Assembly (NCBI GenBank): GCA_025928335.1
Contig: JAICJQ010000008.1
Coordinates: 1-48,167, forward strand
Source of the DNA: Gemmatimonadaceae bacterium
GTDB lineage: Bacteria; Gemmatimonadota; Gemmatimonadetes; Gemmatimonadales; Gemmatimonadaceae
Reading direction: 5' to 3'
Length of the DNA stretch: 48,167 bases
The notes beneath the pieces are model-generated. The model worked only from the letters and a program-made list of their open reading frames with translations, did not search any database and was not told the origin of the DNA. The position numbers and the translations under genes were made by a program. This document shows, one piece after another, positions 23,456 through 29,975 of this stretch (positions are counted from its first letter, which is position 1; each line of letters opens with the position of its first letter).

Positions 23456-24943
23456 ATGCTCAGACGTCTCATTTTGGTTTTCGCCGCCATTCCCTCCCTG
23501 GCCAGCGCGCAGGAAACAATCGATCAGGCAATGATGGCCAAGATTCGCGACGAAGGCCTCAACCGTTCGCAGGCCTGGTCGATGCTCGACACGCTGGCCA
23601 CGGTGATCGGCCCCCGTCTCACCGCATCGCCGGCATTCATGCGCGCCGCGATCTGGTCGCGCGACCATATGACCGGTTGGGGCCTCAAAGACGTGCACAT
23701 GGAGTCCTGGCCGTGTGGTCGTGGGTGGGAGCTGCAGCGCTTTACGCTCGAGATGACGAGCCCGCGCTACGCGCCGATGATCGGATATCCGGACGCGTGG
23801 TCGCCGTCGACGAACGGCGACGTGGTCGGAACGCCGGTCATGATCGGCGGTGTAACAGCCGACTCGCTCGAAAAGATCAAATCCTCGCTCAAGGGCAGGA
23901 TCGTGCTCTCGCAGCCGTTGATGACAACGTTCATCCGCGAGGATCGTATCAATCCGACAGCGCCGAACGCGCCGGCCGACACCTACACTCCCGTCGGCGG
24001 TGGACGCGGCGGTCGTGGCGGCGGTCGCGGTGGGGGCCCTTCGGAGGCACAACGCATCGCGACGATTCTGCACGACGCGGGCGTCGGCGCGGTGCTGAAG
24101 CCGAGTCGCGGCGAGCATGGGACGATCTTCCTGCAAACGCGCGACGCGGGAGCGAACGGAGTTCCGACCGTTGTCGTCGCCGGCGAGCAGTACAACAACC
24201 TCGTTCGCCTGCTCGGCGACCGCGTGCCGCTCACCGTTCGCGTGAATGTGCAAGGACGCTACTTCACCCAGGACACGAGCGGCTACAACATCATCGCGGA
24301 AATTCCCGGGACCGATCCGAAGTTGGCGAGCGAAGTCGTGATGATCGGCGCACACCTCGACTCGTGGCACGCGGCGACCGGTGCGACCGACAACGCCGAC
24401 GGCGCCGTCACGGTGCTCGAGGCGATGCGCATCCTTCAGGCAGTCGGGGCCAAACCGCGCCGCACGATTCGGGTCGCCCTTTGGGGCGGCGAAGAGGAAG
24501 GCCTATTCGGCTCGAAGGCGTGGGTCGCGCAGCACGTGGCGGGCGAGGCGAACAAAGCAGCGCGCGACAAGCTCTCGGTCTATCTCAACATCGACCCCGG
24601 CTACGGTCCGGTCTACGGCTTCTACACCGAGGGCAACGACGCCGCGAAGAGCATCTTCGATGCGTGGCTGGAACCGTTCAAGGATCTGAGCGTGCGGAAG
24701 AACGTCCATGCGGGGATCGGCAACACGGATCACCTCAGCTTCATCGCCGAAGGGGTTCCGGGTTTCAATCCGATTCAGGAGTACGCGAACTACGACGTCC
24801 GCATCCACCATACGAACATGGACACGATGGAGCGGATGAAGCCTGAGGATTTGAAGCAGGGCGCCGTGATCTTTGCGGCGTTCGCCTACAATGCGGCGAT
24901 GCGCGACGCGATGATGCCGAGGGCGCCGGTTGTCAGGCCGTAA
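23456..24943 (+). CDS. Exported M28-family metallo-aminopeptidase
   Basis: 495 residues. The signal peptide is about 1-18 (cleavage after SLASA). A PA-type insert lies at about 100-270 and contains a glycine/arginine run GGGRGGRGGGRGGG at 181-194. The di-zinc M28 core has H300 and D302 (GAHLDSWH), D312 (TGATDNADG), the glutamates E346/E347 (GGEEEG), D380 (NIDPGYG) and H451/H452 (IHHTNMDTME). All ligands for an active enzyme are in place. It likely removes N-terminal residues from peptides in the periplasm or outside the cell. Such peptidases are abundant in Gemmatimonadota. It is convergent with the histidine kinase gene. Confidence 0.93.
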   Translation: MLRRLILVFAAIPSLASAQETIDQAMMAKIRDEGLNRSQAWSMLDTLATVIGPRLTASPAFMRAAIWSRDHMTGWGLKDVHMESWPCGRGWELQRFTLEMTSPRYAPMIGYPDAWSPSTNGDVVGTPVMIGGVTADSLEKIKSSLKGRIVLSQPLMTTFIREDRINPTAPNAPADTYTPVGGGRGGRGGGRGGGPSEAQRIATILHDAGVGAVLKPSRGEHGTIFLQTRDAGANGVPTVVVAGEQYNNLVRLLGDRVPLTVRVNVQGRYFTQDTSGYNIIAEIPGTDPKLASEVVMIGAHLDSWHAATGATDNADGAVTVLEAMRILQAVGAKPRRTIRVALWGGEEEGLFGSKAWVAQHVAGEANKAARDKLSVYLNIDPGYGPVYGFYTEGNDAAKSIFDAWLEPFKDLSVRKNVHAGIGNTDHLSFIAEGVPGFNPIQEYANYDVRIHHTNMDTMERMKPEDLKQGAVIFAAFAYNAAMRDAMMPRAPVVRP

Positions 24944-24953
24944 GGCGGCCAGC

Positions 24954-26273
24954 TCACGCGCGCGGTAGAAGGAGCGAGAACGTAGACCCAGCGCCTGGCT
25001 CGCTCTGCGCCCTCAAATCGCCGCCCATTCCGCGCGCGAGGTCGCGGCTAATCGCGAGGCCGAGGCCGGAGCCCTCGGTCTGTCGTGTGTGGCTCGCGTC
25101 GACTTGGATGAAGGGTTCGAACACGCTTGCCAGTTTGTCGCCGGGGATTCCGATGCCCGTGTCGATGACACTGACGAGTACGTGATGTTGATCGACAGAG
25201 TCCGCGGTAACGCGAATCGTGCCGCCGGCCGGCGTGAACTTCACCGCATTGGTGAGGAGGTTGATGAGGATCTGCTGAACCTTCTCGCGGTCGGCCCGGA
25301 CCGTGAGACCGGCCGGAACCGCCGCGATCGAGCGCAAGCGGGCGGCGGCCATCTGCGGCTCGATCATCGGCATCACGCTGTTCACGAGATCGTTGACCTC
25401 GACATCCTCGAACGTGAACTCCAGGCGCCCCGCTTCGATCCGCGCGAGGTTGAGGACATCGTTGATCAACCGCAGCAGATGACGCTGCGCCCGTGAAATC
25501 CGCTCGAGCGCGCCCCGTTGCCCGTCAGTGACCGGCCCGTGCACGCCCATGTCGATGAGTTGCGCATAGCCGCCGATCGCGTTCAGGGGCGTCCGCAGCT
25601 CATGGCTCATGACCGCGAGGAACTGACTCTTCGCCCGATTCGCCTCTTCCGCGACGTTCTTGGCACGCTCGAGCTCTTCGCTGCGCTCGAGCAGCTCGTC
25701 GTTGATCGCGTGTAGTTCCTCGCTCTGGGCCTCGAGCTCGGCGGTCTGCTCCTGCAGCTGATGCTGCTGGAGCTCGAGCTCGATCGCCTGTTCCTCGAGA
25801 CGCTCATTAGCCGCCTCCAGTGCGCGTGTCCGCTCCTCGAGCGCCGCGTTCGCGGCGTCCGCGGCCTGGCGTGCCCGGAGCAGCGCATCTTCGTATTTCC
25901 TGCGCTCGCGCACCTCCATGAGGGCACAGTCGATGAATCCTCTGCCATCTCGCTCGCGCCGCACCGCGTTGAGCAGAACCCCGACGTCGCCGCCATCCCT
26001 GCGGCGCATCAAGAGAAACAGCTCCTCCGCCTTGCCGTGCAGCCGGACCATGGGGTAGAGGTGGGTTTGGAGAAAGATCTTACCGGCCACGGTGAGCAGC
26101 GTTTCGACTTGACGTCCGACGAGCTCCGCACGGTCGTAGCCGAGCATCGCGGCGAGCGTCGAGTTCGCGGCGGCTACCGTACCATCGTCGTCGAACGAGA
26201 AGAAGCCGCAGGGGAGCGCGTCGAGCGTCGCGTCCAGCTCGAAGGCATGTACCGGCGCGCGGGTTTCAGCCAA
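24954..26273 (-). CDS. Soluble PAS-domain histidine kinase
   Basis: 439 residues from a TTG start that overlaps the stop of the RsbQ-like gene by 8 bp (TTGGCTGA). The N-terminal PAS domain (about 12-122) includes GFFSFDDDGTVAAANSTLAAMLGYDRAELVG. A long coiled coil rich in Glu, Leu and Gln spans about 125-215. HisKA has H224 (MSHELRTPLNAIGGY). HATPase motifs are NLLTNAVKFTPAGG (N box), DTGIGIPGDKLASVFEPF (G1/F) and GSGLGLAIS (G2). No transmembrane segment is seen, so it senses inside the cell. No response regulator gene is adjacent. PAS plus coiled coil resembles the input half of B. subtilis RsbP, whose gene is also paired with RsbQ. Confidence 0.93.
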   Translation of the reverse strand: MAETRAPVHAFELDATLDALPCGFFSFDDDGTVAAANSTLAAMLGYDRAELVGRQVETLLTVAGKIFLQTHLYPMVRLHGKAEELFLLMRRRDGGDVGVLLNAVRRERDGRGFIDCALMEVRERRKYEDALLRARQAADAANAALEERTRALEAANERLEEQAIELELQQHQLQEQTAELEAQSEELHAINDELLERSEELERAKNVAEEANRAKSQFLAVMSHELRTPLNAIGGYAQLIDMGVHGPVTDGQRGALERISRAQRHLLRLINDVLNLARIEAGRLEFTFEDVEVNDLVNSVMPMIEPQMAAARLRSIAAVPAGLTVRADREKVQQILINLLTNAVKFTPAGGTIRVTADSVDQHHVLVSVIDTGIGIPGDKLASVFEPFIQVDASHTRQTEGSGLGLAISRDLARGMGGDLRAQSEPGAGSTFSLLLPRA

Positions 26274-27078
26274 CGGGGGACTCGAGGAATTCGCGGATGA
26301 GCGACACGGTCTCTTCGGGCGCGCTCATGTGTGGACAATGGCCCGTCGCCCGCATCACGCGCAGTGTGCTGCCCGGCGTCTCTCGGTGAACGTATTCACC
26401 GACGGTGTTGGGTGCGATGATGTCCTCCGAACACTGCAGCACGAGTGTCGGCACGCGAACGTGTTGAAGGTCGGTGCGGTTGTCCGAGAAGAACGTCGCT
26501 TCGGCGAAACGTCTCGCGATGACCGGATCAGTCGAGCAGAAACTCTCCGTCAGCTCGGCCCCGAGCTCGGGACGGTCCGCGTTCTTCATGATCGCCGGGG
26601 CGAGATAATTCGCCCACCCGATGTAGTTCTTGTCCATCGTCTCGAGCAGACCTTCGATGTCCGACCGCTCAAAACCCCCGACATAATTGGGAGGATCATT
26701 GATGTAACGCGGCGACGGGCCGATCAACACGAGTCGCGCGAACCGGTCGGGCTCGCGGTTCGCCGCGATGACGCCGACCATTGCGCTCACCGAATGCCCG
26801 ACGAAGACGACGTCGCGCAAGTCGAGCGCGTGGATGATGTCGAGCACGTCGCGCGCGTAGCCTTCGAGCGACGCGTATCTGGTCGCGTCGTAGGCGGAGA
26901 GCTCCGATTTGCCCGAGCCGACATAGTCGAACAAGACGAGCTTGTAGTCGTCGGCAAAGGCGGGCGCCACGAAGCGCCACATGTTCTGATCACAACCGAA
27001 GCCATGAGCGAACAGCATCGGCTGCTTGCCGCTGCCCGCAACCTTCACGTTGTTTCGGGCGAGAACGTCAAGAGGCAT
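26266..27078 (-). CDS. rsbQ: RsbQ-like alpha/beta hydrolase (KAI2/D14 superfamily)
   Basis: 270 residues from the ATG at 27078. With this start the catalytic triad falls at S96 (GHSVSA), D219 (CSEDIIAP) and H247 (GHCPHM), the positions known for B. subtilis RsbQ. Segments such as FGCDQNMW, VAPAF, LFDYVGSGKS, GPSPRYINDPP, KNYIGWA, FCSTDPVIARRFA and FFSD are those of RsbQ. In Bacillus RsbQ works with the PAS-phosphatase RsbP to trigger the energy-stress response, probably by acting on a small hydrophobic compound; plant KAI2 and D14 are related receptors. Here the partner gene, overlapping by 8 bp, is a PAS histidine kinase. An ATG at 27120 is a weaker start. Confidence 0.93.
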   Translation of the reverse strand: MPLDVLARNNVKVAGSGKQPMLFAHGFGCDQNMWRFVAPAFADDYKLVLFDYVGSGKSELSAYDATRYASLEGYARDVLDIIHALDLRDVVFVGHSVSAMVGVIAANREPDRFARLVLIGPSPRYINDPPNYVGGFERSDIEGLLETMDKNYIGWANYLAPAIMKNADRPELGAELTESFCSTDPVIARRFAEATFFSDNRTDLQHVRVPTLVLQCSEDIIAPNTVGEYVHRETPGSTLRVMRATGHCPHMSAPEETVSLIREFLESPVG

Positions 27079-27197: not shown

Positions 27198-27749
27198 TCA
27201 CAGCGCTTCGAGTCGGTGCACTTCTCCGACCAGGCGGAGAACATGGTCCCGGACATCCGCCGGCCATGCCGCAATCAGCTCCTCGAGTTGCGCATCGGAC
27301 TCGCCGTAGAGCGCTCTGGTCGCGTCCTCGAAATGCGGCAGGTCGCCACCCATCGACCACATGAAGCGCGCAATCCCGTCGCGGAGACGGCGAGCGCGCT
27401 GCGTGCCCGGCTCGCGCTTTCGAGCCTCGTCGACGAGCCGACGAATCGCGGCGGAGATGCCGTTTGGCTGATCTTCCAGCCACTCCCAATGCCGCGGCAG
27501 CAGCGACACTTCTCGGCCCACGACTCCAAGCTTCGGTCGGCCGGGGCGCATTCGCACAGTTCGCGCTCGTCCGCGCTCGAGAACGTCGTCGAGCGAGCCG
27601 CTGAAATCGAAGTCGACCTGTTTACCGGTCATGTCCTCGAAGATCAATACACGTGCTTCGTTAGTGTCGGTATACTGCTTTATGTCAGACAGTATTGTGT
27701 CGCGATTCCCGGCGGCGATCCGCTGGCTTCCTGCAAAGGCGGTGTACAT
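27198..27749 (-). CDS. DUF2239-family protein
   Basis: 183 residues of a conserved family with no known role. Recognisable parts are MYTAFAGSQRIAAG, a small middle region (VDFDFSGSLDDVLERG), the highly conserved GRPKLGVVGREVSLLPRHWEWLEDQPNG and IRRLVDEARK. I chose the ATG at 27749 because GAGGAAA lies just upstream and because the promoter at 27784-27812 predicts a transcript start near 27777, so an ATG at 27776 would have no leader. The protein seems cytoplasmic, with no signal peptide or membrane segment. It lies 119 bp upstream of the RsbQ-like start on the same strand but has its own promoter. Confidence 0.9.
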   Translation of the reverse strand: MYTAFAGSQRIAAGNRDTILSDIKQYTDTNEARVLIFEDMTGKQVDFDFSGSLDDVLERGRARTVRMRPGRPKLGVVGREVSLLPRHWEWLEDQPNGISAAIRRLVDEARKREPGTQRARRLRDGIARFMWSMGGDLPHFEDATRALYGESDAQLEELIAAWPADVRDHVLRLVGEVHRLEAL

Positions 27750-27783
27750 GGTTTCCTCGCCATTCGTGTCGGTCATGGTGGGA

Positions 27784-27991: not shown

Positions 27992-28150
27992 ATGAAGAAA
28001 AAGGGGAAGGCGAACATTCCGGATTTCTCGCGCAAGCGTCCTGGTCTTCCGACGCCGGAGCACCGCGTGGCCGCGCCCGTGCCCAGCACCAGACCGCCGA
28101 TCGTGAAGCCGCATTCGACGTCGGCGAAATCAGGACGACGGGGCCAATAG
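27992..28150 (+). CDS. 52-residue basic Pro/Ser-rich small protein, unknown function
   Basis: A short gene with a strong ribosome site: AGGAGG lies 4 nt before the ATG at 27992. The product begins MKKKGKANIPDFSRKRPG and ends KPHSTSAKSGRRGQ; it has about a quarter Lys/Arg, many Pro and Ser, and no acidic cluster, signal peptide or membrane segment. It is likely disordered and may bind nucleic acid or an acidic partner (inference). The last 21 bp overlap, tail to tail, the 3' end of the sigma-factor gene on the other strand. I seem to recall similar small proteins ending in SAKSGRRG but cannot name a family. Confidence 0.7.
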   Translation: MKKKGKANIPDFSRKRPGLPTPEHRVAAPVPSTRPPIVKPHSTSAKSGRRGQ

Positions 28151-29413
28151 CTCGCACTCGCGGACGCGACGTTCGAGAAAACGGCGCTCCATCGAATTCC
28201 GCGACACCTCAATGGCCGCGGCAAAGTGGTCGCGCGCGCGTGCCCCGTATCCAAGCCGCAACTCCAATTCGGCGACCGCGGCGTGATAGAACGGGTACTC
28301 CGCCAGCCGCTGGCGATTCGCGATCGACTCTAGCGCAGCCAGACCGGCCGCGGCACCGTCGCGTTCACCGATCGCGATCGCTCGGTTGAGCTCCACGACC
28401 GGGGATGGCGCCAGCCGTTGTAAATGGTCGTAGAGCGCGACAATGGTCTCCCAGTTTGTATCGGCGACGCTGGCCGCCCGCACGTGCTCCGCGGCAATGG
28501 CCGCTTGCAGGTGGTACACTGTGAGCTCGTTTCCCGTCGCAGAGCGGTCGAACAGGCCGAGCCCCTGGTCGATCAAGCGCCTGTCCCAACGCGCGCGATC
28601 CTGTTCGCTGAGACGGCTCAACTCACCCGCCGCGTCCACGCGCGTGACCAGCCGCGCGGCGTGAAGATGCATCAGCGCCGCGAGGGCGCTGGTTGCCGGC
28701 GTGTCGGACGGCGGATATTCGCGAAGCAGCATGACGAGGCGAATCGCCTCGGCGCACAGATCGCTGCGCACCGCGAGCTCGGGGGACGATCCGTGGTATC
28801 CTTCGTTGAACAGGAGATACAGCGCACGCTGAACTGAGTCGAGTCGGGAAACAAAGTCCGTGTCGACGAGATCGAAGAGTCGCTTGCTCGCCGCGAGAGT
28901 CTTCTTCCCTCGCGCGATCCGCTTTTCGACCGCGGCGCGGCTGGTGAGAAATGCCGCGGCGATCTCGCCGGCGCTGAATCCGCAAAGGATGTTGAGAATC
29001 AGGGCGACCTGCACGTCTTCGGCGAGACTCGGTTGACAGCACGAAAACATCATTCGGAGCTGCTCGTCGCGAATCGTGTGCACCTCGAACGCCTCGTTGA
29101 CGGCCGGCGACAGCGTCCATTCCGTCTCGAGCAAACGGCCCATCTCCGGCGCGAACGTGCGGGCCGTTCGTTCGCGTCGTAGAACGTCGATCGCCCGATT
29201 CTTCGCCGCCGTCATGAGCCACGCGGCGGGGTTGTCCGGGATCCCGCGCATGCGCCAGGCCTCGAGCGCGCGGACGAACGCGTCCTGAACGACGTCTTCG
29301 GCGAGCGCGAGATTGTGCACGCCGAAAATGCGCGTGAGCGCGGCGACCATCCGTCCCGACTCGCGCCGGAAGAGGTGATCGTCGAGCTCGCGCGGCGTAT
29401 CGGCGCCGGTCAC
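28130..29413 (-). CDS. ECF42-type RNA polymerase sigma factor with C-terminal extension (DUF6596)
   Basis: 427 residues from a GTG start. Region 2 is at about 20-85 (LAEDVVQDAFVRALEAWR, GIPDNPAAWLMTAAKNRAIDVLRRE) and region 4 at about 115-180 (FSCCQPSLAEDVQVALILNILCGFSAGEIAAAFLTSRAAVEKRIARGKKTL). The long extension (about 185-427) contains LFNEGYHGSS, typical of DUF6596, and a TPR-like helical end. In this sigma group no anti-sigma factor is known; the extension controls activity and a DGPF/YCII-like gene is the usual neighbour. Exactly such a gene lies 54 bp upstream in the same direction (29468-29815). Confidence 0.93.
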   Translation of the reverse strand: MTGADTPRELDDHLFRRESGRMVAALTRIFGVHNLALAEDVVQDAFVRALEAWRMRGIPDNPAAWLMTAAKNRAIDVLRRERTARTFAPEMGRLLETEWTLSPAVNEAFEVHTIRDEQLRMMFSCCQPSLAEDVQVALILNILCGFSAGEIAAAFLTSRAAVEKRIARGKKTLAASKRLFDLVDTDFVSRLDSVQRALYLLFNEGYHGSSPELAVRSDLCAEAIRLVMLLREYPPSDTPATSALAALMHLHAARLVTRVDAAGELSRLSEQDRARWDRRLIDQGLGLFDRSATGNELTVYHLQAAIAAEHVRAASVADTNWETIVALYDHLQRLAPSPVVELNRAIAIGERDGAAAGLAALESIANRQRLAEYPFYHAAVAELELRLGYGARARDHFAAAIEVSRNSMERRFLERRVRECELLAPSS

Positions 29414-29467: not shown

Positions 29468-29815
29468 CTACATCGGCGCGACGGGGCGGACCTCGACCGA
29501 GCCCTCGCCAGCGAGCATCGGGCACCCCCGCGCCAGCTCCGCCGCCTGATCGATGTCCTTCGCCTCGATCACGCTGTATCCGAGGACGAGATCCTTCATC
29601 TCGACGAACGGACCGTCGGTGACCGTCTTCACCTTGCCGCGCAGTACGCGCCCTTCGGTCCCTAACGGGTTTCCGGGGTTCTTGATGTGGCCCTTTGCCT
29701 CGAGGTCGCGCATCCACTCGAGCCAGGCCTGCATGCTCTGCTGGCGGGCTTCCGCCGACATCGCGGCGCGCCGTTCGGCGTCATTGGTTCGATACAGGTA
29801 GATAAACTCGCTCAT
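29468..29815 (-). CDS. YCII-related DGPF-domain protein
   Basis: 115 residues from the ATG at 29815 (MSEFIYLYR), chosen for AAGGAG at the right distance; a longer reading to 29857 is less likely. The defining motif TDGPFVEMKDLVLGYSVIEA has DGPF at 67-70, followed by DIDQAAELARGCP. These ferredoxin-like-fold proteins accompany ECF42 sigma factors; their biochemical role is still unclear. It is the first gene of a two-gene unit with the sigma factor and is divergent, across 160 bp, from the STAND/LuxR regulator. Confidence 0.92.
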   Translation of the reverse strand: MSEFIYLYRTNDAERRAAMSAEARQQSMQAWLEWMRDLEAKGHIKNPGNPLGTEGRVLRGKVKTVTDGPFVEMKDLVLGYSVIEAKDIDQAAELARGCPMLAGEGSVEVRPVAPM

Positions 29816-29975
29816 CGTGGCTCCTTGAAATGGTCGGTTGATCGTCACGGAGCGCATTCGCGCCTCCGTCGGCGTTGTCGCCGTTGTACCTCAACGACGC
29901 GCGGCCGGCGCTCCCCCGGACATTTTTGTTCGACCTTGGCGGCGCACGCACCGACTCTCATCTTTTCGATGAGTC

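Follow-up and report, generated by a model that had tools for sequence, protein, structure and literature searches.

The locus reported here has its closest known counterparts in RsbQ-PAS modules with a histidine-kinase output, relatives of the RsbQ-RsbP pair of Bacillus subtilis. According to Nadezhdin, Brody and Price (2011; PMC3183031), 45 RsbQ/RsbP-PAS gene pairs carry phosphatase, histidine-kinase or diguanylate-cyclase outputs, with the kinase outputs occurring in Gram-negatives. From yeast two-hybrid assays the same authors conclude that RsbQ binding needs the PAS domain and nothing more. They report that in B. subtilis changes at F55 and Y59 abolish signalling as well as the binding of RsbQ (F55A blocks both) and that catalytic-triad substitutions are null, and they offer two models, in which RsbQ acts either as an enzyme or as a receptor; as of 2011, a target of the module was known in B. 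subtilis only. A 2025 eLife paper (PMC12143880) restates the kinase and cyclase outputs and mentions an AlphaFold2 model of two RsbP with two RsbQ placed at the PAS domain and linker. Judging by its title, Melville et al. 2024 concerns how B. subtilis perceives butenolides through RsbQ. A review states that the plant receptor KAI2 possibly stems from the transfer of a bacterial RsbQ.

The pair described here lies in a window of 48,167 nucleotides, by which we mean the whole stretch of DNA that was analysed, from a source genome whose assembly is 79% complete. An RsbQ-like alpha/beta hydrolase gene (26266..27078, minus strand; ATG start, 270 aa) is followed by a gene encoding a PAS domain, a coiled coil and a histidine kinase (24954..26273, minus strand; TTG start, 439 aa; receiver domain absent from the protein). 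The two overlap by 8 bp (TTGGCTGA; 26266..26273, minus strand), the kinase TTG start being embedded in the final codons and the stop codon of the hydrolase gene, and both the open reading frames and the Pfam matches confirm this arrangement, which the initial annotation had proposed. As the TTG is the first ATG, GTG or TTG in frame past the preceding stop, and the Pfam PAS matches in the kinase start at residue 13-21, a kinase start at the overlap is natural. Upstream of the hydrolase, a DUF2239 gene (27198-27776, minus strand) ends 119 bp before the hydrolase start; downstream of the kinase, an M28 peptidase gene (23456-24943, plus strand) runs convergently. No sigma-70-like promoter was found around the pair, and terminator-like sites occurred there at chance level only, both tests being weak for a GC-rich lineage. 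The initial annotation had also recommended looking for the response regulator of this kinase; a profile search (E 1e-4) of the 48 kb window gave no receiver match, either beside the kinase or further away. Elsewhere in the window, a gene for an ECF-type sigma factor with DUF6596 (28130-29413) adjoins a YCII-domain gene (29468-29857), both on the minus strand.

In a phmmer search against PDB chains, the top match of the hydrolase was B. subtilis RsbQ (1wom, 1wpr; E 1.3e-111), followed by 3qvm (1.8e-87) and then by KAI2/D14-type proteins from 4.4e-64 down. The catalytic triad (S96, D219, H247) and four cavity residues (F27, V97, F136, F196) carry the same numbers as PMC3183031 gives for B. subtilis, and none of them varies in an alignment of 11 sequences from the phylum of the window. 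The earlier claim of an RsbQ homologue with its triad at the same positions is thus upheld by both the ranking and the numbering. The source genome contains 11 matches to the hydrolase superfamily, and among the ten others, the seven whose 1.5 kb flanks were examined with profiles had neither an RsbP-like PAS domain nor a kinase there.

Pfam matches in the kinase cover PAS_9/PAS/PAS_4, HisKA and HATPase_c. Its RsbP-type PAS domain (25887..26237, minus strand; approximately residues 13-129) is the most N-terminal domain and is encoded directly downstream of RsbQ; it contains a PCG motif (C22), the F-alpha sequence KIFLQTHLYP (residues 65-74) and E84, and lacks a DIT motif at its end. At the published signature positions C10, L13, L48, Q53, F55, C56, Y59, E72 and P86, for which the consensus is given in classes (C, L, E, P or hydrophobic, basic, aromatic, H/Y), the window has C22, F25, L60, K65, F67, L68, H71, E84 and G98, the positions having been equated via the F-alpha spacing and not by alignment to B. 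subtilis RsbP itself. The residues corresponding to B. subtilis F55 and Y59 are accordingly F67 and H71. Seven of the nine are common among 166 RsbQ-linked PAS domains; G98 departs from the usual P (138/166, with G in 10), and L68 is rare (L in 2/166, where an aromatic residue or H is usual). Across this set, the counts are 141 for C at position C10, 150 for F or Y at F55, 151 for H or Y at Y59, 161 for P at P62, 146 for E at E72 and 138 for P at P86. The F-alpha motif [RKQ]x[FY]xxx[HY]xxP occurs in the window and in 140/166 linked domains (130/166 when the following E is included). Of the 17 PAS_9 matches in the source genome, the window domain alone shows it uninterrupted by a stop (0/16 for the others). 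A DIT-like motif, D[IV]T[ED], was seen in 5/166 linked domains, and the set described in PMC3183031 is reported to have none. The catalytic core (HisKA and HATPase_c; 24957..25634, minus strand; residues 214-439) has its H-box, N-box, G1, F and G2 motifs all present (SHELRTP with H224, NLLTNA, DTGIGI, F385 and GSGLG).

Between the PAS domain and this core lies a coiled-coil linker (25620..25889, minus strand; residues 129-218), in which 12 of 17 strong hydrophobic residues share one a/d phase, a value reached by 8 of 10000 shuffles; by this hydrophobic periodicity, the kinase has a coiled coil of at least the 21 residues before the output that are taken to define one. We took as linker length the distance between the conserved glutamate at the end of the PAS domain (window E128) and the phospho-acceptor histidine (window H224), which gives 96 residues for the window, or 26 + 10 x 7. 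The same arithmetic recurs elsewhere. Among single-PAS kinases with a canonical H-box and a linker below 100 residues, a set defined by motif and length and serving as the unselected test, 48/48 fit 26+7k, the lengths seen being 26, 33, 40, 47, 61, 75, 89 and 96; there were 55 canonical-H-box loci in all, and of the seven with linkers of at least 135 residues, 3/7 fit. In the phylum of the window, kinases that are close relatives have linkers set apart by whole heptads, from 26 to 96. The histidine could be placed in 107 of 111 kinases, of which 59 belong to the 26+7k series; a linker of 26 residues occurs in 40/107, and that of the window is longer than usual. On the tree, the series implies at least 14 changes across its 59 loci, a count that is descriptive because the loci were chosen by membership in the series.

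The rule is class-bound and not general to all outputs. HDxxEP-type kinases have a linker of 57 in all 28 loci, H[DE]FNN-type kinases have 38, 42, 60 or 165 with no common phase, 10/12 diguanylate cyclases have 121 or 128, and phosphatases fall into two phases, 48/55 and 54/61/68/75. Where it holds, the 26+7k regularity supports a signal carried along a coiled coil that stays in register. Linkers of discrete lengths spaced by heptads have been described in sensor kinases (PMC6798134; PMC4469895); for the RsbQ-PAS module we found no published account of such a rule, and the word 'heptad' does not occur in the main text of PMC3183031.

To place the pair among its relatives, RsbQ presence was scored in phylum and class samples as a match at E 1e-45, with sample phylum names taken from the named record at the centre. 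Matches were found in 26/298 genomes of Gemmatimonadota, 12/198 of Bacteroidota, 5/190 of Alphaproteobacteria, 21/296 of Actinomycetota, 4/299 of Bacillota and 43/193 of Myxococcota, and in none of the three other congeners listed in the sample. The named loci closest to the window belong to Gemmatimonadetes. The initial annotation had suggested a search for RsbQ homologues beside PAS-kinase genes; at 96/106 sampled RsbQ loci, an RsbP-type PAS frame begins no more than 450 bp downstream. This depends on similarity to the window RsbQ, the downstream PAS being present in 89/89 loci at 55% identity or more (spanning all six of these groups), in 7/12 at 45-55%, where one of the misses sits at a contig end, and in 0/5 below 45%. 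By output, the 106 loci comprise 42 kinases, 25 kinases with a receiver, 17 SpoIIE phosphatases and 6 GGDEF proteins, together with 6 in which the output is missing or cut by the flank and 10 without a PAS. For Myxococcota, 30 of the 71 listed places entered the count, the remainder being mostly less similar, and by profile an RsbP-type PAS was absent from four further less similar loci (L166, L244-L246). A genome scan, from which the best 80 of at least 585 confirmed candidates were taken, showed PAS downstream of RsbQ in 78/80; of the exceptions, L058 runs into the end of its contig, and in L107 an RsbP-type PAS-phosphatase gene is placed divergently beside RsbQ. The locus sets of the phylum sample, the genome scan and the other class samples partly overlap. 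RsbQ-PAS adjacency is far beyond chance, and close RsbQ homologues and RsbP-type PAS domains travel together, while the module overall is patchy. The possibility, raised at the outset as an argument against the pairing, that such homologues might prove rare and scattered was half borne out: RsbQ itself is patchy (26/298 in the phylum of the window), but wherever a close RsbQ is present, a PAS gene adjoins it.

Several of the sampled loci are of interest in their own right. In Bacteroidota pairs (L056, L057, L059, L063 and others), profiles often place a single-receiver gene beside the kinase, in L057 with a Response_reg match over 135 aa (Pfam, run for this locus only), which gives a hint of the destination of the output in those bacteria. 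Two Myxococcota RsbQ homologues (approximately 40-44% identity; L245:2992-6296 and L246:1721-4641) stand directly before hybrid kinases with HisKA, HATPase and receiver domains, and in L245 also Hpt, whose 270-320 or so N-terminal residues are without a Pfam match; they may represent yet another form of the module. In three Bacillota loci, two of them named Paenibacillus, RsbQ is followed by a short frame of PAS plus coiled coil (171-182 aa; L074:4785-5297, L076:4785-5297 and L205:2246-2791, plus strand) in which no output domain was found, and these three loci form one side of a starred branch of the RsbQ tree. The divergent arrangement in Bacillus sp. (L107:2720-8122), in which rsbQ faces away from an rsbP-like PAS-phosphatase gene, has genes for CheW and CheA following rsbQ on its own strand. 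Actinoplanes-type relatives (L078:4716-7298, plus strand; Pfam, run for L078 only) combine PAS, GAF and SpoIIE phosphatase domains with a C-terminal HATPase_c_2 in a single protein of 830-860 aa, and a distant RsbQ homologue (35%; L201:1512-3761, plus strand) is overlapped by a PAS and GGDEF frame that by profile has no RsbP-type PAS. Some relatives are apparently broken, with the kinase split over two frames (L009), a stop in the RsbQ match (L021) or both RsbQ and PAS truncated (L032); sequencing error is a possible cause in each. In L012 the RsbQ frame is open over 1069 aa, and a hydrolase-kinase fusion was considered and rejected, as the PAS-kinase lies in another frame and profiles found no further module domain in the long one.

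How inputs and outputs have been combined can be judged from the RsbQ tree (177 rows, quick method, unrooted, 38/173 inner branches starred), which, like our other trees, omits loci present twice and RsbQ fragments below 230 residues. Kinase, GGDEF and phosphatase outputs require at least 11 changes on this tree, and starred branches alone already imply 4 or more kinase changes, 2 or more phosphatase changes and 3 or more GGDEF changes. Pairwise distances of RsbQ and PAS are correlated at r 0.77, with 0/999 permutations as high, as compared with 0.52 for RsbQ and kinase domain and 0.56 for PAS and kinase domain (n=109 and no species-tree control throughout). This is what an input cassette set on exchanged outputs should look like. 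The initial annotation had gone further, stating that the input halves match those of Bacillus and that the output had been swapped from phosphatase to kinase. Its first part stands, by RsbQ identity and PAS signature; the second is no new swap, since kinase outputs were already part of the 2011 description, and a phosphatase-to-kinase polarity was not accepted on a tree that is unrooted and made by a quick method.

Our main reading, to which we assign a probability of about 0.8, is that the window encodes a two-gene cytosolic RsbQ-PAS module with a histidine-kinase output, with signalling proposed to run from hydrolase to PAS to coil to kinase. It builds on what is directly visible at the locus, namely gene anatomy, family, catalytic residues, PAS signature, adjacency and linker register. 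The Ser-His-Asp pocket of the hydrolase would take up a small hydrophobic molecule, probably with slow hydrolysis, and the hydrolase would dock on the F-alpha helix of the N-terminal PAS of the kinase; from the B. subtilis literature we infer a direct RsbQ-PAS contact in this pair as well. Occupancy or turnover of the pocket may then alter the grip of the hydrolase on the PAS dimer, and the resulting change could pass through a parallel coiled coil in heptad register to the DHp helices, as rotation or supercoiling, where it would alter how kinase activity is balanced against phosphatase activity; a response regulator encoded elsewhere would receive the phosphoryl group. The ligand, the sign of the response and the response regulator of this pair can be given by inference only, and a small hydrophobic ligand would fit the butenolide and RsbQ of the 2024 title for B. 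subtilis. Joint function of hydrolase and kinase, which had been put forward from gene overlap and shared layout, is well supported, given the adjacency across phyla, the PAS contact signature, the co-divergence of RsbQ and PAS, and the binding and genetics in B. subtilis.

Other explanations of the same locus differ greatly in how probable they are. PAS folds generally have a cavity, which speaks for a reading in which the hydrolase would make a product for the PAS pocket, the PAS being the true sensor and RsbQ a supplier of cofactor or signal. This is the enzyme model of PMC3183031, and it agrees with the intact triad of the window hydrolase and the null triad substitutions in B. subtilis; set against it are the 2024 title, which places perception in RsbQ, and the statement in PMC3183031 that, as of 2011, a PAS ligand was not known. 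We consider it possible, although doubtful, and favour the receptor model over it. Much further down the scale, the hydrolase might be a plain metabolic esterase whose overlap with the kinase gene is incidental, the kinase sensing something else. The large hydrolase superfamily of this genome and the lack of a PAS partner at RsbQ-like loci below 45% identity (0/5, and 0/4 in the additional Myxococcota) give this idea some footing, but the unbroken adjacency at 55% identity or more and the residue-level PAS signature in the kinase make it highly improbable. The least likely explanation, by a small step, is that the pair is non-functional or decaying in the source genome, as might be suspected from the TTG start, the patchy distribution and the broken relatives; in the window itself, both frames are open over their full length and keep the triad and the kinase motifs.

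The cytosolic RsbQ-PAS kinase module that we prefer can be drawn more boldly, as a two-component receptor for a diffusible butenolide-like signal and bacterial counterpart of the karrikin and strigolactone receptors, built from an exchangeable cassette whose only output rule would be coiled-coil register in whole heptads. The hydrolase would read the ligand, and the coil, at any such length, would pass this on to whatever kinase, cyclase or phosphatase the lineage had acquired; this fuller version we put forward tentatively, as an unlikely extension. Either way, the locus has practical value. A kinase member with all its motifs offers autophosphorylation as an in vitro read-out for whether RsbQ is an enzyme feeding the PAS or a receptor pushing it, the whole-heptad rule makes that same question approachable by linker-length variants, and the tie to plant karrikin and strigolactone receptors supplies candidate ligands.

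Set beside known systems, the pair is a sound, fairly ordinary example of a known sensing module, in which the Gemmatimonadaceae lineage and the linker regularity are new here, the latter not found in print. We found no published account of RsbQ in this group, and 'Gemmatimon-' is absent from the main text of PMC3183031. With the plant KAI2/D14 receptors, the window hydrolase shares its family (250-260 residues aligned, E ~1e-64 to 1e-47) and the Ser-His-Asp pocket, but it is far closer to RsbQ. The plant receptors work with MAX2/D3 and SMAX1, partners without a counterpart at the window locus. Vibrio LuxPQ, a comparison drawn in PMC3183031, resembles the pair in that a separate ligand-binding protein acts on the PAS of a histidine kinase; unlike the window pair, with its soluble hydrolase, LuxPQ is periplasmic and has a hybrid kinase and an unrelated binding protein. 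RsbQ-RsbP of the B. subtilis sigma-B energy-stress branch agrees in hydrolase, PAS, coiled coil and operon order, whereas the window output is a histidine kinase (HisKA/HATPase_c) and not a PPM/SpoIIE phosphatase; the one SpoIIE-type phosphatase match of the source genome is on another contig. A new kind of sensor was considered and rejected, since the 2011 study (PMC3183031) already had RsbQ with a PAS-coil-kinase protein among the three regular output types of the module. From those 2011 kinase modules the window differs in host lineage, in its longer linker (96) and in having G at P86, and it shares with them RsbQ immediately upstream, an RsbP-type PAS in the most N-terminal position, a coiled coil, a kinase output, the missing DIT motif and most signature residues.
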